The position numbers were made by a program, and so were the translations under genes. 64,000 bases of DNA from Taibaiella chishuiensis (GTDB lineage Bacteria > Bacteroidota > Bacteroidia > Chitinophagales > Chitinophagaceae), in the NCBI RefSeq assembly GCF_003014535.1, contig NZ_PYGD01000006.1, forward strand, positions 1 to 64,000, written 5' to 3'. Below the pieces are notes generated by a model. That model was given only the letters and a program-made list of their open reading frames with translations. It made no database searches and was not told where the DNA came from. Shown piece after piece: positions 47,028 to 64,000 of the stretch; position 1 is the first letter of the stretch, and the number at the start of each line of letters is the position of its first letter.

Positions 47028-48647
47028 TCACTCATAATTTTCGGCAAGAATTTCCACCGGGAAGTAGCGCAGGCCGGTAGCGCACCTGGTTTGGGACCAG
47101 GGGGTCGCAGGTTCGAATCCTGTCTTCCCGACTTGAAAGGACAAAACAGATTCACTTCTGTTTTGTCCTTTTTTATTTGGGCTTAATTGGCTATCCAATA
47201 GATAGATAAGTCTTGCCGCTTCATTTACCCTGCCGGTTCGAACAGCACTATTTTCAAAATGTAGTTTTTCCGGGAACATCGAACTTATGATTTCCCTCTT
47301 CTTTTCTACTTCTGCGGTTTCATAAACGGAGCCTACCTTTAAAAGATTAGCTAATCCCTCATCCAGTAGGGTTTTCAAATCTACAGTATTGCTACTGTTG
47401 GCATCTTCCTTAACTCTTAGCCGTTGCAACTGTTCGGTATAATCAGCTTTCATCTCCCGGTAATCTTCCGGTTCTATCTGCTTTGATACTAACAGCTCTC
47501 TCAGGTAAGCCAGCTTTCCTTCTGTTTCCTTAATCTTGTTGGCAACCTGCTTGCGGTCGTCCTTTATTGCGCCGGTCTGCTCCTGCCATTCCTCTAATAG
47601 AACGGCCTTATAGATTTCCAGCATTTCGGGTTTTGGTATATACTGCTTAAGTATCCTTTCAAATTGGTTGTTGGCTTCATCTGCCCTGAACCTGAATTTA
47701 CATCCGCCGTAGCAATGGTAATAGGCATAATACTTGGTGTTGCCTTTCGAGGCGCTGCCTGTAAGTAATTTGCCACAGGACGGACAGGTCAGAAAGCCTC
47801 TTAACGGCAATGATGCAGCAGAAACAACTTTAAGCCGGTAGGTACCTCTTTTCCTCCCGTCCAATACATCTTGCACCTCGTAATAAAGCTCCTCTGTTAT
47901 AATCGGCTCATGCAAACCTTTTACAAACCTGCTTTCTTCGTCTTTGTATTTATTGATAAAAATCTTCCCGCAATAGATGGGATTACGGATGGCAAACCAG
48001 AACAGGCTTTTGGTGCCGGTAAATCCCCGCTGTTTTGCCATTTTAAAAATCTGCTCTGTGTTATATACACCTTTGGCTATTTCTTCAAAAGCCCATACCA
48101 GGATTACAGAATTTTTGCCGTCTGGTGTTATATACTTCCTGCCGCTTTCATCGGTTTTATTTACGTAGCCAACGGGCGCTAATCCCATATAACGGCCTTC
48201 CTTTCTAGCCCTGCGCATACCAACGATTACGTTCAAAGCCCTCCTGTCGTTTTCCACTTCAGGGGCTGCCAAATAAAACGCCAACATCATTTTGTTCTCA
48301 GGAATAGATAAGTCCAATGGCTGTTCGATGGCTTGCGGTTCCACGCCCAGTTTTCGAAGCGTGTTGATCATTTGATAGGCATCGCCCGCATTACGACTAA
48401 AACGGTCCCATTTAAGGAACAATACGAAATCGCTTTTGCCCTTATGCCTTTTGAGGTCCAGCAAATAGGCTTTCCATTCAGGGCGATTGAAAGTCTTCGC
48501 AGAATGATCTTCATAAATAACTTTTCTTACGCTGATCTTATTGAGGTCACAGTATTTACGCAATAACTCTTCCTGTCCCCGTTGGGAGTAGCCCTTATCT
48601 GCCTGTTCATCTGTACTTACCCGGATATATAAGTCTGCAATCTTCAT
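47028..48647 (-). CDS. large serine recombinase (integrase) of the island
   Basis: 539 aa. Residues 1-150 are the resolvase catalytic domain with nucleophile Ser in LYIRVSTDEQ near residue 10; the recombinase domain follows, then a zinc ribbon (RGFLTCPSCGKLL...YHCYGGCKF) near 290-320 and a coiled coil near 380-430. The last 30 or so residues (GFEPATPWSQTRCATGL and beyond) are simply the antisense translation of the tRNA-Pro gene and its terminator. The gene therefore ends inside its own attachment site, which marks the left boundary of the element. It mediates insertion and excision of the island. Confidence 0.93.
   Translation of the reverse strand: MKIADLYIRVSTDEQADKGYSQRGQEELLRKYCDLNKISVRKVIYEDHSAKTFNRPEWKAYLLDLKRHKGKSDFVLFLKWDRFSRNAGDAYQMINTLRKLGVEPQAIEQPLDLSIPENKMMLAFYLAAPEVENDRRALNVIVGMRRARKEGRYMGLAPVGYVNKTDESGRKYITPDGKNSVILVWAFEEIAKGVYNTEQIFKMAKQRGFTGTKSLFWFAIRNPIYCGKIFINKYKDEESRFVKGLHEPIITEELYYEVQDVLDGRKRGTYRLKVVSAASLPLRGFLTCPSCGKLLTGSASKGNTKYYAYYHCYGGCKFRFRADEANNQFERILKQYIPKPEMLEIYKAVLLEEWQEQTGAIKDDRKQVANKIKETEGKLAYLRELLVSKQIEPEDYREMKADYTEQLQRLRVKEDANSSNTVDLKTLLDEGLANLLKVGSVYETAEVEKKREIISSMFPEKLHFENSAVRTGRVNEAARLIYLLDSQLSPNKKGQNRSESVLSFQVGKTGFEPATPWSQTRCATGLRYFPVEILAENYE
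47058..47131 (+). tRNA. tRNA-Pro (UGG), integration site of the island
   Basis: 74 bases. The acceptor stem CGGGAAG pairs with CTTCCCG plus discriminator A. The anticodon loop TTTGGGA carries TGG at 47092-47094 in a five-pair CCTGG/CCAGG stem, and the T-loop is GGTTCGAATCC. The gene is intact although the recombinase gene overlaps it on the opposite strand. CCA is not encoded. Confidence 0.95.
47136..47174 (+). terminator. terminator of the tRNA pair
   Basis: AAAGGACAAAACAGA and TCTGTTTTGTCCTTT form a perfect 15-bp stem with loop TTCACT, followed by Ts. It follows the tRNA-Pro gene by four bases and lies inside the antisense recombinase frame. Confidence 0.9.
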
Positions 48648-53959: not shown

Positions 53960-54172
53960 TTATTTAAGTGTGCAGGTGGTATACGTCTGTGGTCTTAGAC
54001 CGCTGCAGTCATCGATATAAGATGCACCAGATGGTTTGCAACCACCCCCAATAACGGTTATGCAGTCGCTTGACGTTCCGGCACCAATTACATTCTTAAT
54101 AAATGCAGGGGATAAGGTTGTTATGCTAACTTTTCTAAGAGATAACTTCTTTACTGAGGTGTTTTTTTTCAT
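53960..54172 (-). CDS. class I lanthipeptide-like precursor peptide
   Basis: 70 aa. Residues 1-32 are a basic leader containing KKLSLRKVSITTLSP, which fits the LxLxKxxIxxL leader signature of Bacteroidota class I lanthipeptides, and end in IGAG. The core of about 38 residues is rich in Ser/Thr and has four Cys (SSDCITVIGGGC, IDDC, TTCTLK) with Gly-rich spacers. No LanB/LanC genes are in the window, so either it is modified by enzymes elsewhere, or the resemblance is to the leader only. It lies 102 bp upstream of the S41 peptidase and on the same strand. Confidence 0.65.
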   Translation of the reverse strand: MKKNTSVKKLSLRKVSITTLSPAFIKNVIGAGTSSDCITVIGGGCKPSGASYIDDCSGLRPQTYTTCTLK

Positions 54173-54230
54173 TTTTTAAGATTTGTATTTAAAGATAGTT
54201 TGTTATCTTGACTAGTATTGCCTAACCTAA

Positions 54231-54458
54231 TGGGGAAGCAGCAAACGTATTTACTTTTATCCAATAAGCCAAACAACATTTATCAGTATTTTAGATTATG
54301 AAATTTCTTATCCTGTCTCCGAATTATTTGGCAAAACACTATTAAGAATACAGAGAGAGAATTCGACACTGTTCAAAGTTTTAGGATATTTATTCTTTTT
54401 AATTTTTGCGATTTTTTTTGCCGTCTGGTTTGTATACGGAAGGGAACTGATTCAGTAA
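54231..54458 (+). pseudogene. possible remnant of a small membrane protein gene
   Basis: A frame open from 54231 to the stop at 54456-54458, without an ATG. It encodes a segment with a hydrophilic start and a clear transmembrane helix (LGYLFFLIFAIFFAVWFVYG) close to the end. The absence of a start codon and lack of neighbours suggest either a truncated gene or a non-ATG start. It could also be chance in AT-rich DNA. Confidence 0.3.
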
Positions 54459-54527
54459 TTAAGTGACTACAACTAAGGATACATTTTTATAAAAATAGGA
54501 TTAAAATGTTGATAGTTAGTGATAAAT

Positions 54528-54565
54528 AGGCAGAATTGCCTATAAAAACAGGCAGGATTGCCTAT
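54528..54565. promoter_or_regulatory. paired operator-like repeats before the grasp-with-spasm operon
   Basis: AGGCAGAATTGCCTAT (54528-54543) and AGGCAGGATTGCCTAT (54550-54565) are near-identical direct repeats, each a small palindrome (AGGCA...TGCCT). Their starts are 22 bases apart, two turns of the DNA helix, so two dimers would bind on the same face. They lie about 275 bases upstream of the peptide gene. The LuxR-type regulator encoded next door is a candidate binder. Confidence 0.6.
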
Positions 54566-54839
54566 TGTTAGGCCCTCATTCCGCCTCTAAATTTGCCTTA
54601 TCAATTGATGGTTATTCCAGGTGTGATGGAATAGCAAGTTTACCAAAGACGATCACACGGTTTTTGGTAGACCAAATCAGGTGAAAGCTACACCTGAGAT
54701 TTCAAAATAAATTGTAACCTTAAAATTGATCTTCCGGAAAAGTACACTTCGGATCAAAAAGTTGGTAGCGATTTACAGTATCGATCTGATGAGCTGAAAG
54801 GTTAAAAAATTATCACTAACATTTAAAAAAAGAACAAAA

Positions 54840-55040
54840 ATGAAAGTTCAATCATTGAATTTCCCAGCAATTGAAGCGCTTCCTAAAAGCGGTATGCAAA
54901 AAATAAACGGCGGAGCAATGTCTCGCAGAGAGACATCCGCAGGTGTTCTTAACGGCATGGAGTATGAATGTGACTCCGCTCTTTACGACGATGGAGTGTA
55001 CCAGAACACCACATATACCTTTAAAAAGAGGGTAAACTAA
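54840..55040 (+). CDS. grasp-with-spasm precursor peptide
   Basis: 66 aa. The leader (MKVQSLNFPAIEALPKSGMQ) ends in KINGG, a double-glycine-type processing site near residues 24-25. The 41-residue core is rich in Glu/Asp and Thr/Ser/Tyr (RRETSAG, EYECDSALYDDG, NTTYTF), the donors and acceptors expected for ester or amide cross-links made by an ATP-grasp ligase. It directly precedes the maturase genes, so the assignment rests on context as well as the GG motif. Confidence 0.75.
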   Translation: MKVQSLNFPAIEALPKSGMQKINGGAMSRRETSAGVLNGMEYECDSALYDDGVYQNTTYTFKKRVN

Positions 55041-55054
55041 AGAAAACAGAAAAG

Positions 55055-55089
55055 ATCGGTTTAAGGCAGTGTTGCTGCCTTAAACCGAT
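55055..55089 (+). promoter_or_regulatory. intercistronic stem-loop after the precursor gene
   Basis: ATCGGTTTAAGGCAG and CTGCCTTAAACCGAT form a perfect 15-bp stem with loop TGTTG, 14 bases after the peptide stop codon. It is not followed by a T-run, so it looks like a partial terminator or an mRNA-stabilising element that raises the precursor-to-enzyme ratio. Confidence 0.75.
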
Positions 55090-55107
55090 ACCTTAAACCC
55101 ATTTATA

Positions 55108-56217
55108 ATGACCAGACTCATCCTATTAATACTTCTTTTTGCAAGCAATGTTGCTTTTGCAACAGATAATAAGATTAAAGCTTATTTGACATTAGTTAAT
55201 GAAGCGGAACTACTCGTTTGCAATGAAAAATTAAGCGAGGCAATACAACATTATGACAAAGCTTTCTCGCTTAAGCCCTCACCACTCGGCAAAGATTTAT
55301 TAAACGCTCTATTGTGTGCTTATCAATTAGATGATACCGGAAGATTTAAATTATATGCCGCCAAGCTGGTAAAAAATGGCGCCTTCTCTAATATCAGTAA
55401 TTTAAGAAGATATATTTCGAAAGTTCCTATCGGCCCGAATAAAGAAAAGTATGGAAAGATATGGGATGATCTGAGTGGCAAGGTAGTAGTTGGATTAGAT
55501 ACTGTTTATCGCAACCAGCTGATCAAACTGGTGCAGGATGATCAGGATGTCAGGCATTACTTTGTAGAAAAATACCACGGAGATTATAATAACGGTGGGA
55601 AGGATTCATTAAACGTTTTTGACTCCCTTAATGTAATCAAACTTCAAAACTTATTCGCTACAAAAGGATTTCCTACGGAGAATAAAGTCGGTTATGACCA
55701 TAATTTTCCAGGCAATCCTCCTTTATACGAATTAATTATCCGGCACGATAGATCCTGGACGAATAGGAAAACGCTGGATTCGGTTTTCTATTTCGCAGTC
55801 ATAAATGGCGATTTCCCGGCACTGACCTATGGCTATTGGAAAGACCAAAGTTATGGTAATACGCGCGACACTGTCGCTTCCTATCAAAAAGAATCCTATT
55901 CCCGATTTGGAACGGATGATCTTATTGTAATAGATGATGTGCTGTATGTCGATCGCTTCAGCGAATTAGATAAAAGTAAGATTAATAGGGCAAGGGCAGC
56001 TATATATATGAACTCGCTAGAAGAGGAAGCCGTAAAGGCCAGGTTTCAGATGAAACACAAATACTACCGTTTCCTTGATGGAACAACTTTTCTTCAATGG
56101 GACGGCATGTCCCCAGAAGACCTGCAAAAGGTGAAAGACAAGTCCTATAACGATAGCGATATATCGTCTTTTAATGTTATATCAAACAGAAAATGTGAAT
56201 ATGGCCTTGAACATTAA
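55108..56217 (+). CDS. exported TPR-like protein of the RiPP cluster
   Basis: 369 aa. A signal peptide (MTRLILLILLFASNVAFA) is followed by a TPR-like helix pair (YLTLVNEAELLVCNEKLSEAIQHYDKAFSLKP) near 20-60 and a tryptophan/tyrosine-rich region of unknown fold. It is not an enzyme I recognise. It sits between the precursor and the ATP-grasp gene (11 bp from the latter), so it is part of the same operon; a periplasmic role in handling or sensing the product is a guess. Confidence 0.6.
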   Translation: MTRLILLILLFASNVAFATDNKIKAYLTLVNEAELLVCNEKLSEAIQHYDKAFSLKPSPLGKDLLNALLCAYQLDDTGRFKLYAAKLVKNGAFSNISNLRRYISKVPIGPNKEKYGKIWDDLSGKVVVGLDTVYRNQLIKLVQDDQDVRHYFVEKYHGDYNNGGKDSLNVFDSLNVIKLQNLFATKGFPTENKVGYDHNFPGNPPLYELIIRHDRSWTNRKTLDSVFYFAVINGDFPALTYGYWKDQSYGNTRDTVASYQKESYSRFGTDDLIVIDDVLYVDRFSELDKSKINRARAAIYMNSLEEEAVKARFQMKHKYYRFLDGTTFLQWDGMSPEDLQKVKDKSYNDSDISSFNVISNRKCEYGLEH

Positions 56218-56228
56218 ATCAAACCAGT

Positions 56229-57203
56229 ATGATCGTTATACACTCTCAGCAGGACGAATCCACAACCGATGACGTGCTGGATTGGTTGTATTATTTCGGT
56301 ATGGAGCAAGTAAAACGTGTTAATGGAACCAATCCCATCAATGCAAAAGCCCTTCGAATTAACAACCATACGCAACATTCGAACCTGTTTGATGATGCGG
56401 AAAGTTCCGCTATAAATGCCTATTGGTACAGACGGGGACATTTAGCATGCGAAATTAGTGAACCTATTAAACTGGGTTATTCCGGTTTTGTAACCTATTT
56501 CGAAAAAGAATATGATCACCTTACAAAAGGTATTAGCCAGGTATTCAAACAGTATCGAAATATCAACTCATTCGAAGATACCGGTACCAATAAGCTTACT
56601 AATCTTGCCGTTGCTGCGGGCGTTGACTTGTTGATACCGGATACCTTAGTCACCGCCGATGTAAAAGCAATAAAAGCCTTCTCCGCTATATATCCCAGGA
56701 TTATAACCAAGGCCATTGGGCACAATCGTATAACGGCAACGATTGACGACAATAGCTATATAAACATTGCTGTCGATACCGCTATTTTTGACCAGGATAA
56801 GATCAATGCACTTCCTGAAGAAAACAACTTTTTGCCTGCCGTTTTCCAGGAATACCTGGAGAAAAAATATGAGCTAAGGATATTCTATTTCCACGGCCAG
56901 GTCTACAGTATGGCCATATTTTCACAGTTGAATGAAGCGACCAAAGTTGACTTTAGAAAGCATGATACGGAAACGCCCAACCGTTGTGTTCCCTATCAGT
57001 TGCCGGAAGATATTGAAAAGAAACTGGGAAGATTTATGCAGCATATAGCTATGAATAGTGGCTCTATTGACATGGTTGTAACCCCTTCCGGTGAGCATGT
57101 ATTTTTAGAAGTCAACCCTGTCGGTCAACTGCAATGGTTGTCGGCAAATTGTAACTATCCTATTGAACGGGAAATCGCTAAATTTTTATTGCATGATAGC
57201 TAG
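56229..57203 (+). CDS. ATP-grasp peptide maturase (grasp-with-spasm type)
   Basis: 324 aa. The middle and C-terminal parts carry ATP-grasp features: VTADVKAIKAFSAIYPRIITKAIG (lysine of the ATP-binding lobe), FQEYLEKKYELRIFYFHGQVYSMAIFSQ (EKxxELR loop), and GSIDMVVTPSGEHVFLEVNPVGQ near the end, with the metal-binding E-N pair in FLEVNP. This is the signature of the MvdD/RimK-like ligases that form ester or amide bonds in graspetide-type RiPPs. It overlaps the following small gene by 11 bp. Confidence 0.88.
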   Translation: MIVIHSQQDESTTDDVLDWLYYFGMEQVKRVNGTNPINAKALRINNHTQHSNLFDDAESSAINAYWYRRGHLACEISEPIKLGYSGFVTYFEKEYDHLTKGISQVFKQYRNINSFEDTGTNKLTNLAVAAGVDLLIPDTLVTADVKAIKAFSAIYPRIITKAIGHNRITATIDDNSYINIAVDTAIFDQDKINALPEENNFLPAVFQEYLEKKYELRIFYFHGQVYSMAIFSQLNEATKVDFRKHDTETPNRCVPYQLPEDIEKKLGRFMQHIAMNSGSIDMVVTPSGEHVFLEVNPVGQLQWLSANCNYPIEREIAKFLLHDS

Positions 57204-57420
57204 ATCGGAAAGCGAAAGACAGAAAACCATCAATGAATTCCTGGATTGGTTGGATGCACATCGCGAAAACTTACCTGTAAATGCAGCAACCTGGACCTTT
57301 CAGTACATAGAGCAACAAGCGGTTCCGGAGCATGAGCTGGTTTCATTGGGAAAATATAATGCTCGAAAAGCAGCCTCCATTTCCTTTTATAAACCCTATT
57401 CCAAGATCTGCAAATTCTGA
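57193..57420 (+). CDS. small operon protein between the two maturases
   Basis: 75 aa from the ATG at 57193 (MIARSESERQKTINEF). It overlaps the ATP-grasp gene end by 11 bp and stops one base before the SPASM gene start codon, so translation is likely coupled. It is helical, begins SESERQKTINEFLDWLDAHREN and ends SKICKF. I do not recognise a family. A role as a recognition or carrier subunit for either maturase is plausible but unproven. The frame also extends upstream to 57163. Confidence 0.6.
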   Translation: MIARSESERQKTINEFLDWLDAHRENLPVNAATWTFQYIEQQAVPEHELVSLGKYNARKAASISFYKPYSKICKF

Positions 57421-57421
57421 C

Positions 57422-58507
57422 ATGGATTATTTTTTGTTGTATAGTAATTGCGTCCTGGTTAAAGGGGCGCATCGTGCTACCCTATGCGATCTGCAAAAGG
57501 GAGCGGTTTATTTTATTCCTAAACCGCTTGCGGATCTATTCCTGGAAGATCAGGCTGTAGATCTTGTTCAATTAAGGGAGAAAACGGAGGGTGATATGGT
57601 TCTATTTCTTATGGAGATTATCGACTCTTTAGTGGAGAATCAACTTGGGTTTTATACCAATCAACAGGAATGGAAACGCTTTCCAGCCTTAAATAAGGAA
57701 TGGCTGTTTCCCGCCCATATATCTCATTGTATTTTGGATACGGCAACCGGTCGATTGGATTATTTTACAGAATCCTTCGTAGAGCAGCTGAGTAAACTAT
57801 GTTGCAATTTCGTACAACTTCGTTTTTTTGGAATACCTCCAATAGAGCATTTAGAAAACATATTAAGGCTTATAACCGGCTCCCAAATTAAGTCTGTAGA
57901 AATCCTGATGCCCTGGAATACAGCTTATGAAAGTGGCTGTACTTATGGAAAATGGATCAATGATTATAAAAAAATAAGTAGCCTGGTATGTTGGGGAGCC
58001 CCATCAACCTGTGTAGTAAAAGAGGGCGCTAGAGCTATGGGGTATCTTTTGTATACCAGCGAACAAATCAATGCAGCAACACATTGCGGTATTATCGACC
58101 AGGGAATGTTTTCAACGAATATAACCACCTATACAGAATCGCTTAATTTCAATAGCTGTTTAAACAGGAAGATAAGTATAGACATACAGGGGGACGTAAA
58201 AAATTGTCCTTCGATGAAGGAAAGTTATGGCAATATCGGCGACACCACCTTGGTTGAAGCGATAGGAAAACCGGGGTTTAAAAAGTACTGGAACATTACC
58301 AAAGACCAGGTTTCTATCTGTAAAGATTGTGAATTCCGGCATGTTTGCACTGACTGCCGGGCTTACCTGGAAGATCCAGGAGATGTTTACAGCAAGCCTT
58401 TAAAATGTGGTTATGACCCCTACATTTGTGAATGGGCCGAATGGAGTACGCATCCATTGAAACAGAAAGGTATTAATTTTTACGGTCTCGAAAAACCAGC
58501 TTTTTAG
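57422..58507 (+). CDS. SPASM-domain peptide maturase (grasp-with-spasm type)
   Basis: 361 aa from the ATG at 57422 (MDYFLLYSNCVLVKGA). The frame extends to 57332, but that would overlap the previous gene almost entirely. The C-terminus has a SPASM-type cluster of six or more cysteines: CKDCEFRHVCTDC and LKCGYDPYICEW, near 300-345. No radical SAM CxxxCxxC motif is seen in the N-terminal half, which instead has the LRFFGIPP and VEILMPWNT strands of the barrel. It may bind only auxiliary iron-sulfur clusters, and its reaction is unknown. It closes the RiPP operon. Confidence 0.82.
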   Translation: MDYFLLYSNCVLVKGAHRATLCDLQKGAVYFIPKPLADLFLEDQAVDLVQLREKTEGDMVLFLMEIIDSLVENQLGFYTNQQEWKRFPALNKEWLFPAHISHCILDTATGRLDYFTESFVEQLSKLCCNFVQLRFFGIPPIEHLENILRLITGSQIKSVEILMPWNTAYESGCTYGKWINDYKKISSLVCWGAPSTCVVKEGARAMGYLLYTSEQINAATHCGIIDQGMFSTNITTYTESLNFNSCLNRKISIDIQGDVKNCPSMKESYGNIGDTTLVEAIGKPGFKKYWNITKDQVSICKDCEFRHVCTDCRAYLEDPGDVYSKPLKCGYDPYICEWAEWSTHPLKQKGINFYGLEKPAF

Positions 58508-59365: not shown

Positions 59366-59725
59366 ATGTCATTACAGATTATCATGAGTGAAGATGGAGA
59401 ACGTGCAGAAGGCGTGTTAATTCCTGTAAAGGACTGGAAGACTTTGGAACCTTTTGTAGATAAGGAAAGCGAATTATATTCCTTAATGGAAAGGCTAACC
59501 AAGAAGCCTCCTTTCGAAATGACGGATAAGGAGCTTATAGATCATTTAATGCCTGCTGCCGAGCAGGCGAAACAAAAGTCGCGTGAAATAGGGCTCCCGG
59601 AAATCTATAAAAACGAGGACTGTTACGGTTTTGATCAATTTATACGTGAGTATCCCAATGGCCGGAAAGAGTTGGTGTCACTCGACATTACTAACCGCAC
59701 TTTTACCATCCTGAAAACTTTATAA
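59366..59725 (+). CDS. antitoxin of the zeta-type module
   Basis: 119 aa, acidic and mostly helical, not recognised by family name. The gene stops one base before the start of the zeta toxin gene, in the order and size usual for antitoxins of this group. DKELIDHLMPAAEQAKQKSRE is a likely helical interaction segment; the C-terminal YPNGRKELVSLDITNRTF is beta-like. The antitoxin call depends on position. Confidence 0.65.
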   Translation: MSLQIIMSEDGERAEGVLIPVKDWKTLEPFVDKESELYSLMERLTKKPPFEMTDKELIDHLMPAAEQAKQKSREIGLPEIYKNEDCYGFDQFIREYPNGRKELVSLDITNRTFTILKTL

Positions 59726-59726
59726 C

Positions 59727-60386
59727 ATGAGCCAGCCTAATCTATATGTGATAGCCGGTCCCAACGGCTCAGGGAAAAGTACGTTCTCTCGTAGCCTGAC
59801 CCTTCTTGATAAAGTAATAGATCCGGATGTGGAATTGAATTTGCGCCGCCTACAATTTCCGGATATCAGTAGCGCAAATTTATTGGAAGCCATGAATGAC
59901 AATTGGTTCCCCAACATGGTTCATGAAGCCATCGAAAAAAGAAAGGATTTCGCATTTGAGACAAACTTTAGGTCTGCATCCCTGATGGAAGTAGTAAAAC
60001 AATTCGAAGAAGCAGGATATCTTACTCATTTGTTTTTCATAGGTCTTCCCTCACTACAACTGAGTATAAAGAGGGTGATGTTGCGGGTAAGCAAAGGAGG
60101 GCACGACGTCGACAATGCAGACATCGAAATCAATTATAAAGCAAGCCTGGAGAACCTGGAAAAATATGGTGCTTCTTTTGATAGAACCTGGCTTCTTCAT
60201 AGTTCAGAGTATGGCAAGCAGTTGACCTTGCCTTACATGGTCTGCAAAGCGGAAAAAGGGCAGTTGTTGAAAGAACAAATTCATATTCCAAAATGGGCAG
60301 AGCATTTTGTTCGTACACTCGACAGGACCAGGTTAGAAATTGAACAGAAACAATCTTTGAGTAAGAGGCGTGGGCGTCGTTTGTAA
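59727..60386 (+). CDS. zeta toxin family kinase
   Basis: 219 aa. Walker A GPNGSGKST near residues 12-20 opens a P-loop kinase fold; FAFETNFRS near 75-83 and RVMLRVSKGGHDV near 112-124 are the conserved substrate and arginine motifs of the zeta/PezT superfamily. Related enzymes phosphorylate UDP-N-acetylglucosamine and block cell wall synthesis. The C-terminus is basic (SKRRGRRL). It forms a toxin-antitoxin pair with the preceding gene and probably helps keep the island in the population. Confidence 0.85.
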   Translation: MSQPNLYVIAGPNGSGKSTFSRSLTLLDKVIDPDVELNLRRLQFPDISSANLLEAMNDNWFPNMVHEAIEKRKDFAFETNFRSASLMEVVKQFEEAGYLTHLFFIGLPSLQLSIKRVMLRVSKGGHDVDNADIEINYKASLENLEKYGASFDRTWLLHSSEYGKQLTLPYMVCKAEKGQLLKEQIHIPKWAEHFVRTLDRTRLEIEQKQSLSKRRGRRL

Positions 60387-60696
60387 TTACTCAGTGGATT
60401 AATTATCTGTTGGGTATATAAAGTGTTCCTGGTCCTAGTTATCTGTCCGTTGAAATCAAATTAAATTCTGATAGTATTTCATGTATCAAACTATGCTCCG
60501 TATACTTTACCGATTTTTTTAAATTCAATTAAGCATACGCCAGGTAATGGCGTAAATATCCCTCAAATTTGTATTCCAATATAATCACAATAAAATAACA
60601 GATAAAAACCTGAAAACAACCAGGGGAAAACACCTGATTATGGTGATTATCTTGTTTAGATAAATTTATCGCTTTACTTTGTTACAAAAAAAAATT
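60387..60696. promoter_or_regulatory. control region of the three-gene operon
   Basis: 310 bases without a gene. Near its end a possible promoter reads CTTG, 19 bases, TTACTTTG, each element one base from consensus. Between them lies a perfect palindrome, GATAAATTTATC (60659-60670), an operator candidate. Confidence 0.45.
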
Positions 60697-61641
60697 ATGG
60701 ATATTATTGAAGAACAGACAAGTACGATTCGAAAGTTGTTGTTCTGCGAGATTGAAATAGAGTTTAGAGATACTTATACTCCCAACGATGCTGATTTATT
60801 TAGATCCTTTTTTAGCCGTATTACGAAACTTTCAGAAGATAAGGATAGCTTAAGATACCAGAAATTTGGAGATAAAGTCTTATTCATGAAAGACGTAATT
60901 TTTGATGTTACCGACAAATTTATTACAGGAAAGTTTTTTTGCATACGAACTGACGTCTTTCCTCAAATAATCAATATGAACAGCGATGAGTTAACTGACA
61001 TTGTCGCTGGTGAACAAGATGGAATTGCAGAAACGTCACATTTTGTTATAGATTACCGCAGCGAGATAATTAAAATGTCGATAGAATATAATCATTCAGG
61101 GGCGAAGATTTCAGATTTTAATAATTATTGTGGCCTATTAGGCATTAAATTTGAAGCTACTTCAAAGTTTAATGTGCTGATGATTTCTGCGAGTGAGAAT
61201 CATCTTAAGGCTCTTGAAGATAAGCGAACTAATATTTCCGAGTTTAAAATCCGAATCCTTCAATCAAATCTTAGTTTAATCCAGAATGCGGATCAAGGGT
61301 TATACTCTGCTCTAAGGAATACCTTCGATTTATTTGATCCTAAATATGCAGAACTAAAATTGAAATTTGATTATAAAAAGCAAGCAATTCCGAAGGCAAA
61401 AGATATGATAAGTAATGTGGTAAAATCTATCAAAAGTGACTTGGCCGCTAGGAAAGCAATTGACACATTAAGTGTTCGAGCAGAAAATCCCGATAAAAAT
61501 TTTAAGATGGAATTATATGATCTACTAGTAGAGAAGCTAAAGACTGAAATAACTGTGAAAAGAAAAGCTCGCTCACGTGCAATCGTTTCTGAGGACATAC
61601 TTCCCAAAATGAGAGAAGAATTAATTAAGATTAAAATTTAG
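60697..61641 (+). CDS. unrecognised soluble protein, first gene of the three-gene operon
   Basis: 314 aa from the ATG at 60697; the TTG at 60679 is the alternative. I do not recognise the family. The N-terminal two thirds are mixed alpha/beta (ETSHFVIDYRSEIIKMSIEYN, a short region near residue 110), the final 120 residues are strongly helical and basic (KLKTEITVKRKARSRA). No signal peptide or transmembrane segment. Only 5 bp separate it from the membrane protein gene. Its codon use is very AT-rich, which fits recent transfer. Confidence 0.6.
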   Translation: MDIIEEQTSTIRKLLFCEIEIEFRDTYTPNDADLFRSFFSRITKLSEDKDSLRYQKFGDKVLFMKDVIFDVTDKFITGKFFCIRTDVFPQIINMNSDELTDIVAGEQDGIAETSHFVIDYRSEIIKMSIEYNHSGAKISDFNNYCGLLGIKFEATSKFNVLMISASENHLKALEDKRTNISEFKIRILQSNLSLIQNADQGLYSALRNTFDLFDPKYAELKLKFDYKKQAIPKAKDMISNVVKSIKSDLAARKAIDTLSVRAENPDKNFKMELYDLLVEKLKTEITVKRKARSRAIVSEDILPKMREELIKIKI

Positions 61642-61646
61642 AATGT

Positions 61647-62153
61647 ATGTACGCCAAAATAATGGACCGATACTTTAATCATGCTATTACCGCCGATTTA
61701 TTTGTCGCGTGCCTGTTTTTTTTAGCGGATTATAAATTTGGCGTGTTCTCATTTGCATATTTAGACAAGCCATCCGCCATGGACTTTATTTCGAATCTCA
61801 TAGGTACTTGCATATCATTAGCGGGCTTTATTTTGGCAGCTTTAACCATAATCGTTTCATTTAAATCAAATATTAAAGCTCGAAGGGATTATCATAACAT
61901 AGAGTCAGCATTAGAACTTTTTTTGAATACGAAAAACTATGAAAGAGTGGTTAAATTTTTCAAGAAAGCTATTGTTGAATTTATAATAATTGTCATGTTG
62001 TTGTATGGCATTTGGTTATCTTCTGCAAATCTTGATTCCAATATAATTAGTATGGTGCTGTTTTCTGCAGTTACAATGGTAGTACTTACTATTTGGAGAA
62101 GTTTGGATGTCTTATTCAAAGTAATGAAAACTGAAAATTTAAACAGACAGTGA
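61647..62153 (+). CDS. four-helix membrane protein, second gene of the operon
   Basis: 168 aa, four predicted transmembrane segments (about 14-34, 46-72, 110-125 and 135-155), including GFILAALTIIVSFKS. There is a short cytoplasmic loop (NIKARRDYHNIESAL) in the middle. I recognise no family. Small multi-pass membrane proteins beside nucleases often serve as effectors or anchors in defence operons, so that is a hypothesis here. It is separated from the third gene by 46 bp. Confidence 0.6.
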   Translation: MYAKIMDRYFNHAITADLFVACLFFLADYKFGVFSFAYLDKPSAMDFISNLIGTCISLAGFILAALTIIVSFKSNIKARRDYHNIESALELFLNTKNYERVVKFFKKAIVEFIIIVMLLYGIWLSSANLDSNIISMVLFSAVTMVVLTIWRSLDVLFKVMKTENLNRQ

Positions 62154-62199
62154 TTAATATTTATGTGAAGAAATATAGAAAGGAGATAACATAAAAAAA

Positions 62200-63561
62200 A
62201 TGATTGAAATTATTAATTGCTATGCCAGAATTGATCTTAGCTCGCAAGATTTTACAAGAGTTATTAAGGGGATGAACGATGCAGGGTATAAATCTGCAAT
62301 TTGGCAATCCAAATTAACTCTGCTTTCCACGGTTGGCATTACAAAGTTAAATACAGATGTTTTAGATTGGTTAAGCTACTATAATATCCAAGGCAGAGAT
62401 TCTTTTGTCTATAGGGCGGACATTTTTCTAGAGCATACCGACCTCGTCTATGTTATAAACCGGGGTTCCGGTTGGACTGGGGAATCTAAAGTCGAAATAG
62501 GAGTTATCGGTGTTCATATTGGCGGTGCATCCAAACTTCTGGCGAAATATGCCAACAGTTTTATCAATGCATTGAAAACAAATATTGATGGCCGCAAAGT
62601 GCGTCACATGAATTTGAGATGGTATAAGCTTTCCCAAAATAACAAAATTGACTCTAAGGTCTCATTCGAAAAAGGTTTTACTTATGCATCATTGCAAGAG
62701 GATGAAGTCAAAGGCGCAGTTTTACTTTCAGATGCCCAAAATAGAGAAATCCTGCTAAGAATAGCAGAGACAGGGTCAATAAAAAAAATTGACTTTAAAG
62801 GCGAGAAAATGGACTTCTATCTAGAGAAAATCGAGATGCTTACAAATCTTGGTTTAGTAGACAAAATGTACACCGTTACATGCCGCAAGAAGTCTACTCC
62901 AATCGCAATGATTCGATCAATGGACGAGTTAACACTCTCTAGCAAGGACATACTAAGCTGTCCCCATTGTGCGAGAAGTTTTGAAGATGAGTTATTGCAA
63001 GAAAGCTTTTCACTAACTACGATGGGTAGGAAATTAACTTTGAGTAGTCATTGGATGACAATTTTAGTTACCCAAGTACTTGTTGAAAATGGCATTCCAG
63101 AAAAAAGTATTATTTGGAGTTTGGAAGTTGACGGAGAAGAAGTTGACTGCGTTGTTCAGTTCAAGGATAAAATATGGATCTTAGAGCTCAAAGACAGAAA
63201 CTTCGAGGCAGGCGATGCACATCCACTGGCGTATAGAAGCATTAAGTACAAGGCTGACAAAACAATAATAATTACAACTGGTAAGGTTAGTAAGAACGCG
63301 AGAAAAGTTTTTGAAGACTTGTCCACTCGTAGAGGCGAAAAAAATGGACATCCATTGTATATAGAAGGTCTCTCTCTTCTAAAAAGCTCTGTAGCAACAT
63401 TAATAAAAAATGAAGCCCTTCTCCACGTTCGTGAAAAGACAAAGGAGATAAGTAAGGCTGCCTACATCGAATTATCCCCAGTATTCTCTAAATTATTTGG
63501 CAGCTATACGCTTGAACATAAGGGGGAGTTTAAGGAAGGGGTTAATATTTTTAGATATTGA
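62200..63561 (+). CDS. PD-(D/E)XK nuclease-like protein, third gene of the operon
   Basis: 453 aa. Residues about 310-345 carry VDCVVQFKDKIWILELKDR, fitting the D...ExK catalytic core of PD-(D/E)XK nucleases, followed by a helix and strand (IKYKADKTIIITTG). A CPHC pair near 253 suggests half of a zinc-binding site, although the partner cysteines are not obvious. The N-terminal 250 residues are unrecognised. A restriction- or CARF-linked nuclease is possible. No similarity to a named system is recalled. Confidence 0.6.
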   Translation: MIEIINCYARIDLSSQDFTRVIKGMNDAGYKSAIWQSKLTLLSTVGITKLNTDVLDWLSYYNIQGRDSFVYRADIFLEHTDLVYVINRGSGWTGESKVEIGVIGVHIGGASKLLAKYANSFINALKTNIDGRKVRHMNLRWYKLSQNNKIDSKVSFEKGFTYASLQEDEVKGAVLLSDAQNREILLRIAETGSIKKIDFKGEKMDFYLEKIEMLTNLGLVDKMYTVTCRKKSTPIAMIRSMDELTLSSKDILSCPHCARSFEDELLQESFSLTTMGRKLTLSSHWMTILVTQVLVENGIPEKSIIWSLEVDGEEVDCVVQFKDKIWILELKDRNFEAGDAHPLAYRSIKYKADKTIIITTGKVSKNARKVFEDLSTRRGEKNGHPLYIEGLSLLKSSVATLIKNEALLHVREKTKEISKAAYIELSPVFSKLFGSYTLEHKGEFKEGVNIFRY

Positions 63562-63759
63562 ATCATACGTTTTAAAAGAAAGATGATAACAAATCTCCAT
63601 TCTGTTTCCTTGTTTCTAAATAGTTATTAGTTGTGTTGTTGTGTTCGCGTGACGTCCTCCCTAAAAACCGAAGCGTTGTAAAATAGAAAAACGGAGTAAT
63701 TGAGTTGACTTTGAAATGATTTTGTATTAAGGGAATTAAAGTTTACGTAAAACAAATGA

Positions 63760-64000
63760 ATGATGAAATTTATTGTAAAAATAAACACTGGAGATACTAT
63801 CGTTGCAGATTATCTAAACTCAGTAATATTACGATATGTTGATTGGAATGATTATGGATTTAATACATTGTATCGTGTGACATATATAGATGGGAAAGGA
63901 CGTCCTCAAAAAATTGGAGATGTTAGAATAGGCCGGGTGGGGCAAGCTTCAGAAGATATACGACAATTAAAGGAAGATACTGTATTTAATAAATTGGATG
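63760..64000 (+). CDS. N-terminal part of an unrecognised protein (cut by window end)
   Basis: The frame opens at the ATG at 63760, with a second ATG in the next codon (MMKFIVKINTGDT), and stays open to the window end, 80 codons. VILRYVDWNDYGFNTLYRVTYIDGKG is a beta-rich N-terminus that recalls the first domain of some large Bacteroidota ATPases of defence-type operons, from memory and unverified. It follows the nuclease-like gene by about 200 bp on the same strand, so it may be part of the same system. Confidence 0.5.
   Translation, partial: MMKFIVKINTGDTIVADYLNSVILRYVDWNDYGFNTLYRVTYIDGKGRPQKIGDVRIGRVGQASEDIRQLKEDTVFNKLD

Follow-up and report, generated by a model that had tools for sequence, protein, structure and literature searches.

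RexAB was the first abortive-infection system to be described, and its trigger is still being sought. In the mechanism proposed for phage lambda, a sensor that binds DNA opens a pore in the membrane of the infected cell. Five RexAB-like systems, including that of Pseudomonas putida, were counted in January 2026 (PMC12894663). The 2022 DefenseFinder survey reported RexAB in Proteobacteria only and suggested that this could be due to limited detection or to a bias of the databases (PMC9090908). Among titles and abstract openings in the open literature, we found no description of RexAB in Bacteroidota. Here, we analyzed the first 64,000 nucleotides of contig NZ_PYGD01000006.1 (contig C6), which is part of the 5.8-Mb genome of Taibaiella chishuiensis (Bacteroidota); we call this whole stretch the window. 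A preliminary description of the window had reported three closely packed genes on one strand and a fourth that is cut by the window end. The list of open reading frames (ORFs) agrees: genes 1, 2, and 3 are all on the + strand, and gene 4 starts at 63760 and is cut at 64000.

Genes 1 and 2 look like a distant and so far unrecognized relative of RexAB. We put the probability that the pair is a Bacteroidota branch of RexAB-type modules for phage exclusion (abortive infection) at roughly 0.75. What we computed are the pairing of the two genes, the fold match, the profile match, the hydrophobic segments, and the mobile context. DNA binding, dimerization, gating of the gene 2 protein, and a role in defense are carried over from the RexAB systems that have been described.

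Genes 1 and 2 form a unit

Gene 1 (60697–61641, + strand) encodes a putative RexA-like protein of 314 amino acids (aa) if translated from the ATG, or 320 aa from an alternative TTG start at 60679. A crude scan found zero hydrophobic segments in it. Gene 2 (61647–62153, + strand) encodes a small membrane protein of 168 aa with four hydrophobic segments by hydropathy, and we consider it RexB-like from its hydropathy, its pairing with gene 1, and a weak match to a RexB profile. Hydropathy bears out the soluble protein and four-segment membrane protein of the preliminary description; on a mobile island, the two make up a defense-type arrangement.

When we searched with the gene 1 protein or its profile, relatives turned up in genomes of Bacteroidota and in one viral contig. 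At 14 distinct loci (the window, L008, L010–L017, L019, L021, L022, and L064), the next gene is visible; L018, a fragment of gene 1 at a contig end, was excluded. At all 14 loci, gene 1 is followed directly by a small membrane protein on the same strand. The two genes overlap by 1–4 base pairs (bp) at 11 of the 14 loci and are separated by 3, 5, or 12 bp at the other three. At nine loci, gene 2 was detected by a gene-2 profile built without that sequence (L011–L017, L019, and L064, the last with E = 4.2e-10). For L008 and L010 (or L007 and L005, which are copies of these two), as well as for L021 and L022, gene 2 was first taken by its position and then added to the alignments; the L021 and L022 proteins are 20% and 16% identical to the window's gene 2. 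By a crude count, 13 members of the gene-2 family have 3 to 5 hydrophobic segments.

Across 296 genomes from the phylum, the gene-2 profile matched four, and these are the same four that were matched by the gene-1 profile. Because all four had supplied rows to the alignments, the signal of co-occurrence is the absence of a lone gene 2 from the other 292 genomes, where the gene-2 profile found none. Taken together, genes 1 and 2 form a unit.

The frequencies of gene 1 come from samples of genomes that overlap. Searching with the single gene 1 protein, we found it in 3 of 195 genomes from the family and 2 of 395 from the phylum, including its own genome in each case. One of the three was judged to be a chance match (in genome G140, E = 2.4e-4), as it falls in a histidine-kinase-like ORF. 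Searching with the profile, we found gene 1 in 4 of the 296 phylum genomes and in 3 of 208 genomes from the order, own genome included. In plasmids, searches with gene 1 and with the distant gene 1 from L017 were unproductive. Phages gave just three weak partial matches to gene 1 (best E = 0.04); searches with the gene 1 proteins of L022 and L021 in viral contigs, and with that of L022 in phages, were likewise unproductive.

At L015 (7795–8774), where gene 2 is open, gene 1 is split into two ORFs (80 and 247 aa); either this copy has decayed or the sequence contains an error. Only the downstream piece was used (in alignment A9), and the gene 1 sequences from L015 and L018 were left out of the fold alignment and the family profile.

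Similarity of the pair to RexA and RexB

Gene 1 is predicted to have the split, two-domain, RdgC-like fold of RexA. RexA tops its list of fold matches, and RdgC has the same fold. Of 1000 Foldseek matches (E ≤ 10) of gene 1 to models of viral proteins, six had E ≤ 0.001; one of the six is RdgC from a Serratia phage, and the others are five phage proteins without a name.

The fold list also bears on the idea that genes 1 and 2 are a Kiwa-like system, which pairs a KwaA-type membrane protein of four helices with a DNA-binding protein of KwaB type. Kiwa has the same general parts: one protein is in the membrane, and the other is soluble and binds DNA without cutting it (PMC12904381). On the other hand, it is RexA that heads the fold list of gene 1, and neither PADLOC nor Pfam gave a match to a Kiwa model for the window's genes 1 and 2 or for the relatives that we scanned. 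Both libraries contain Kiwa models. Also, the order kwaA-kwaB is the reverse of the order of genes 1 and 2, which counts against this identity. On the fold list, the model matches, and the gene order, we rejected it as highly improbable.

To compare families of sequences, we aligned ten RexA sequences (from lambda, Klebsiella, Hafnia, and Salmonella phages, and from plasmids) and six RexB sequences. L047, which is a fragment of RexA, was kept out of the RexA alignment, and L027–L037, whose RexA loci are nearly identical or close to that of lambda, were not used. The 12-row gene-1 profile scored 37.6 against RexA (P = 2.3e-4), as compared to a mean of 14.0 and a maximum of 23.2 for 150 column shuffles. 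Seven rows from the main clade alone scored 31.9. Adding the distant L064 and realigning raised the score to 46.6 (P = 1.1e-5, 217 columns, shuffles at most 21.0), but all rows were realigned with another MAFFT mode, so part of the gain may stem from the realignment. The gene-2 profile scored 20.4 against RexB (shuffles at most 17.8), or 24.9 after it was updated (P = 0.0027, shuffles at most 17.6). The crossed controls, gene 1 against RexB and gene 2 against RexA, scored 12.1 each. These scores argue that gene 1 is homologous to RexA at the level of family profiles; subfamilies and single sequences on their own fall short.

Several observations weigh against a RexAB identity. The structural alignment of gene 1 to RexA has a root-mean-square deviation of 14.0, and Foldseek of gene 1 against the PDB alone gave no match with E ≤ 0.001. 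Clade A9 alone scored 16.5 against RexA (60 shuffles, at most 20.2), and L022 and L064 alone scored 18.4 (60 shuffles, at most 23.2). Against lambda RexA alone, the 12-row gene-1 profile scored 20.1, and against three other RexA proteins it scored 14.2–14.8, while the best of 70 decoys scored 20.2; the gene-2 profile scored 18.7 against lambda RexB alone, and the best of 18 membrane decoys scored 19.6. The probability from hhalign was 82% for RexA and 11% for RexB. The RexA and RexB models in Pfam (PF15969 and PF15968) and in PADLOC, which do match lambda and the plasmid controls, matched neither the window's genes nor the relatives that we scanned. In the narrow sense of a match to a curated model, then, genes 1 and 2 are not RexAB. 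The gene 1 protein in the window has a net charge of 0 and an isoelectric point (pI) of 6.9; pI ranges from 6.1 to 9.3 among its relatives and from 5.3 to 8.7 among RexA proteins, and net charge is uninformative here. Finally, no repressor adjoins the gene pair in the window. Strict adjacency to a repressor is also absent in Sbash and others (PMC11077077), so this adjacency does not strictly define RexAB.

As a point of reference for the profile scores, gp44 from phage CarolAnn, which is a tested Rex-like protein, scored 11.1 when it was compared to the RexA profile in this way (60 shuffles, at most 19.6). Because this protein gives no signal, low profile scores do not rule out membership in the Rex group.

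Some other proteins are relevant to the extent of these families. The five unnamed phage proteins (A0A8S5S8L2, A0A8S5MSR5, A0A8S5QGP5, A0A6J5Q1Z2, and A0A8S5PCY0 in BFVD) match the gene-1 model with Foldseek E values of 1.4e-15 to 2.7e-7, and from the models they are likely to be further members of its fold family. The PADLOC candidate PDC-M53B weakly matches some relatives of gene 2 (L013 8903–9397, E = 2.3e-4; L019 8906–9412, E = 0.011; L012 8768–9322, E = 0.1), and PDC-M53 may contain further Rex-like pairs. Two small plasmids, NZ_AP022250 (3.3 kb; L043 1102–2383) and NZ_CP098700 (5.2 kb; L045 458–1716), each contain adjacent RexA-like and RexB-like genes that are annotated as hypothetical proteins. 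The L043 pair matches both PADLOC RexA and PADLOC RexB, and judging by sequence similarity, these plasmids carry rexAB outside of prophages in Enterobacterales.

Proposed function of the pair

We drew the mechanism by analogy with RexAB from lambda and P. putida (PMC12894663). The RexA-like gene 1 protein, with its RdgC-type fold, would form a dimer that binds DNA and senses an intermediate produced by the infecting phage. Once triggered, it would act on the RexB-like, four-segment gene 2 protein, which would then permeabilize or depolarize the membrane, leading to a stop in growth and to aborted phage production. The module moves with prophages and, in the window, with an island at a tRNA-Pro gene.

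The main rival to this proposal keeps the Rex architecture and reverses the logic, as in gp30/gp31 of mycobacteriophage Butters: the effector against phages would be the soluble protein, kept in restraint by its membrane partner. The sequence data fit both logics equally. The reversed logic has been described for one Rex-like pair, that of Butters, while the RexB-type protein is the effector in three other described systems besides lambda (PMC12894663). We consider the reversed logic to be unlikely for genes 1 and 2.

Gene neighborhoods of the relatives

We matched the neighboring genes to profiles for the relatives in genome G430 and at L012, L019, L011, L010 (genome G126), and L013; the other loci were viewed by eye at most. 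The relative in G430 has a phage-type repressor of 132 aa (phrog_4, E = 1.9e-10) directly 5' of gene 1, which is followed by gene 2. Matches to phage transposition proteins (phrog_310 and phrog_296) and a CII-like regulator are nearby, and we read this element as Mu-like. The vicinity of L012 includes a match to an endolysin (phrog_315), a weak match to a head-decoration protein (phrog_2973), and a resolvase. L019, which is an IMG/VR contig, has a DnaB-like helicase and a Rha/KilAC antirepressor. An MmeI-type restriction enzyme is near L011, an IS1595-type transposase is near L010, and a repressor-like gene is about 1.5 kb away from the pair at L013.

The prophage-like settings of some relatives would also suit a pair that serves a mobile element in another way than defense, such as an RdgC-like recombination regulator with a membrane anchor; RdgC shares the fold and acts in recombination (PMC11077077). 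However, RexAB would account for the small membrane protein that is strictly paired with gene 1 and for the repressor next to the pair in G430, and the pair in the window is beside a PtuAB-type defense system. We view a use other than defense as very improbable.

Gene 3 lies outside the conserved unit

Gene 3 (62200–63561, + strand) encodes a 453-aa orphan and begins 46 bp after gene 2. Its D...ELK motif resembles that of PD-(D/E)XK nucleases, but four stretches of the protein fit this loose pattern. Its matches to hidden Markov models are below threshold (Mrr_cat, E = 0.045, and NA-iREase1, E = 0.067, in Pfam; PDC-S01, E = 0.0073, in PADLOC), and a single-sequence AlphaFold2 model was unusable (mean predicted local distance difference test score of 34.8). 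Gene 3 is possibly a restriction-type nuclease of the PD-(D/E)XK group.

The preliminary description had proposed that genes 1, 2, and 3 are one defense system, made up of a sensor, a membrane effector, and a nuclease. The three genes are on the same strand and the spacing between genes 2 and 3 is short, so co-transcription is possible, and the PD-(D/E)XK-like motif would fit the nuclease. However, we found no relative of gene 3 at the 13 other loci with genes 1 and 2 (in stretches of 3.7 to 16.9 kb), and so gene 3 is outside of the conserved unit. More broadly, in one search of 195 genomes and another of 395, gene 3 was found in the window's own genome, and no relative was found in the other 194 or 394; nor did we find any in genome contigs, plasmids, viral contigs, or phages. 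Of the co-occurrence across genomes that had been suggested as a check, genes 1 and 2 show it and gene 3 does not. The lack of a match to gene 3 in the stretches searched at 13/13 other loci led us to discard the three-gene functional unit, which we rate as highly unlikely.

A mobile island with a Septu-type system

The mobile island of the preliminary description is confirmed. A large serine recombinase (47028–48647, - strand; Pfam Resolvase and Recombinase) marks its left end at a tRNA-Pro gene (47058–47132, + strand), which is the left border. In G101, a genome from the same genus (L057), the end of tRNA-Pro runs straight into a match to positions 66332–66495 of the contig (84.6% identity, 169 columns). 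Because this is an empty site, about 19.2 kb (47133 to ~66331) were inserted in T. chishuiensis. A second genome from the genus, G001, has a different sequence there, so the empty site was seen in one of the two genomes compared. A 14-bp piece of the tRNA-Pro end is repeated at 66482–66495. The guanine-cytosine (GC) content is 0.379 over 47131–66482, as compared to 0.502 at 17–47 kb and 0.492 at 66.5–96 kb. The stretch with genes 1–3 (60659–63561) is AT-rich, as had been noted, with a GC content of 0.348 versus 0.50 in the flanking chromosome. To the right of the island, at ~66617–66641 of the contig, there is a short match to an ORF beside tRNA-Pro in G101 (L057 11935–12282) that resembles the end of a recombinase, a hint that elements have inserted at this tRNA gene more than once.

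Gene 4 runs from 63760 through the window end to contig position 65283 (+ strand). Reading beyond 64000, as had been recommended, completed it as a 507-aa PtuA-like ATPase. One bp after it, past the window end, is a gene for a PtuB-like protein of 293 aa (gene 5, contig 65285–66166). In PADLOC, gene 4 matches PDC-M01A (E = 8.6e-180) and PtuA1 (E = 1.6e-161), and gene 5 matches PDC-M01B (E = 6.5e-98), all over nearly the full length, so the cut gene 4 belongs to a Septu-type system, with a PtuA-type ATPase followed by a PtuB-type protein. The NCBIfam PtuA model gave gene 4 a score of 53.6 bits, under its cut-off of 500, and Pfam found no HNH domain in the PtuB-like protein. We found no PtuAB-like relatives in the 14 stretches that were searched. 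By their PADLOC matches, genes 4 and 5 are a PtuAB/PDC-M01 system that is separate from genes 1 and 2. Thus, the preliminary statement that none of the genes matches a defense system does not hold: by structure and profile, genes 1 and 2 appear to be of RexAB type, and gene 4 and the next gene match PDC-M01/PtuA.

Upstream of gene 1, a toxin-antitoxin pair had been proposed. We found a zeta-toxin-like kinase of 219 aa (59727–60386, + strand; Pfam Zeta_toxin, E = 4.4e-10), while its partner, a 119-aa ORF (59366–59725, + strand), has no Pfam match and is a putative antitoxin by position alone. A 12-bp palindrome, without a strand, is indeed present 5' of gene 1 at 60659–60670, but as a control element it carries no weight, because such palindromes are common (27 in the window, and at least one in 317 of 2000 shuffles of 60387–60697) and none was found in the 150 bp 5' of gene 1 in eight relatives. 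We rejected it as uninformative.

Elsewhere in the island, window positions 53960–58507 contain two short peptides (53960–54172, - strand, and 54840–55040, + strand), an ORF with weak matches to ATP-grasp families (56229–57203; R2K_2, E = 0.011, and MvdD, E = 0.026, in Pfam), and a cysteine-rich ORF with no Pfam match (57332–58507). This region may resemble a grasp-with-spasm peptide cluster.

Comparison with known systems

A divergent family of paired genes at 14 loci supports limited detection as a reason why RexAB was found only in Proteobacteria. We think it probable that Bacteroidota have their own branch of RexAB, which is carried by prophages and recombinase islands and is missed by current models. 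RexAB would then be an old defense that crosses phyla, in which an RdgC-like DNA clamp gates a membrane pore, and which can stand alone, with no adjoining repressor, beside a Septu-type system. The 14-locus family supplies an alignment for better models to detect RexAB, and the copies outside of prophages offer a setting, free of a resident phage repressor, in which one could look for the trigger.

Both proteins of the window's Septu-type system match the PADLOC models for PDC-M01 over their full length, and aside from the missing Pfam HNH domain, we found no notable difference from Septu.

Among the Rex-like pairs from actinobacteriophages, gp44/gp43 of CarolAnn and gp30/gp31 of Sbash resemble genes 1 and 2 in having a soluble protein followed by a four-segment membrane protein (165–178 aa), and in CarolAnn these genes come after the repressor gene (PMC6426606). 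In sequence, CarolAnn gp44 gives no signal, by the method used above, against either the gene-1 family or the profile of lambda RexA. The RexAB of P. putida (PP_5643-5644) has been tested in the laboratory (PMC12894663); our pair is known from its sequence alone, and we liken it to this system by the published description.

The window's proteins are longer (314 and 168 aa) than those of lambda (RexA 279 aa, RexB 144 aa) and are not recognized by the RexA and RexB models. Also, this copy is in a member of the Bacteroidota, on a recombinase island, with no adjoining repressor. Nevertheless, the lambda system likewise has a soluble protein and then a small membrane protein, in the same order and on the same strand. 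The lambda order cI-rexA-rexB is resembled by the relative in G430, with a repressor, gene 1, and gene 2. RexA is the best structural match to gene 1, and both proteins of the pair have similarity to their lambda counterparts at the profile level, although for gene 2 this is weak.

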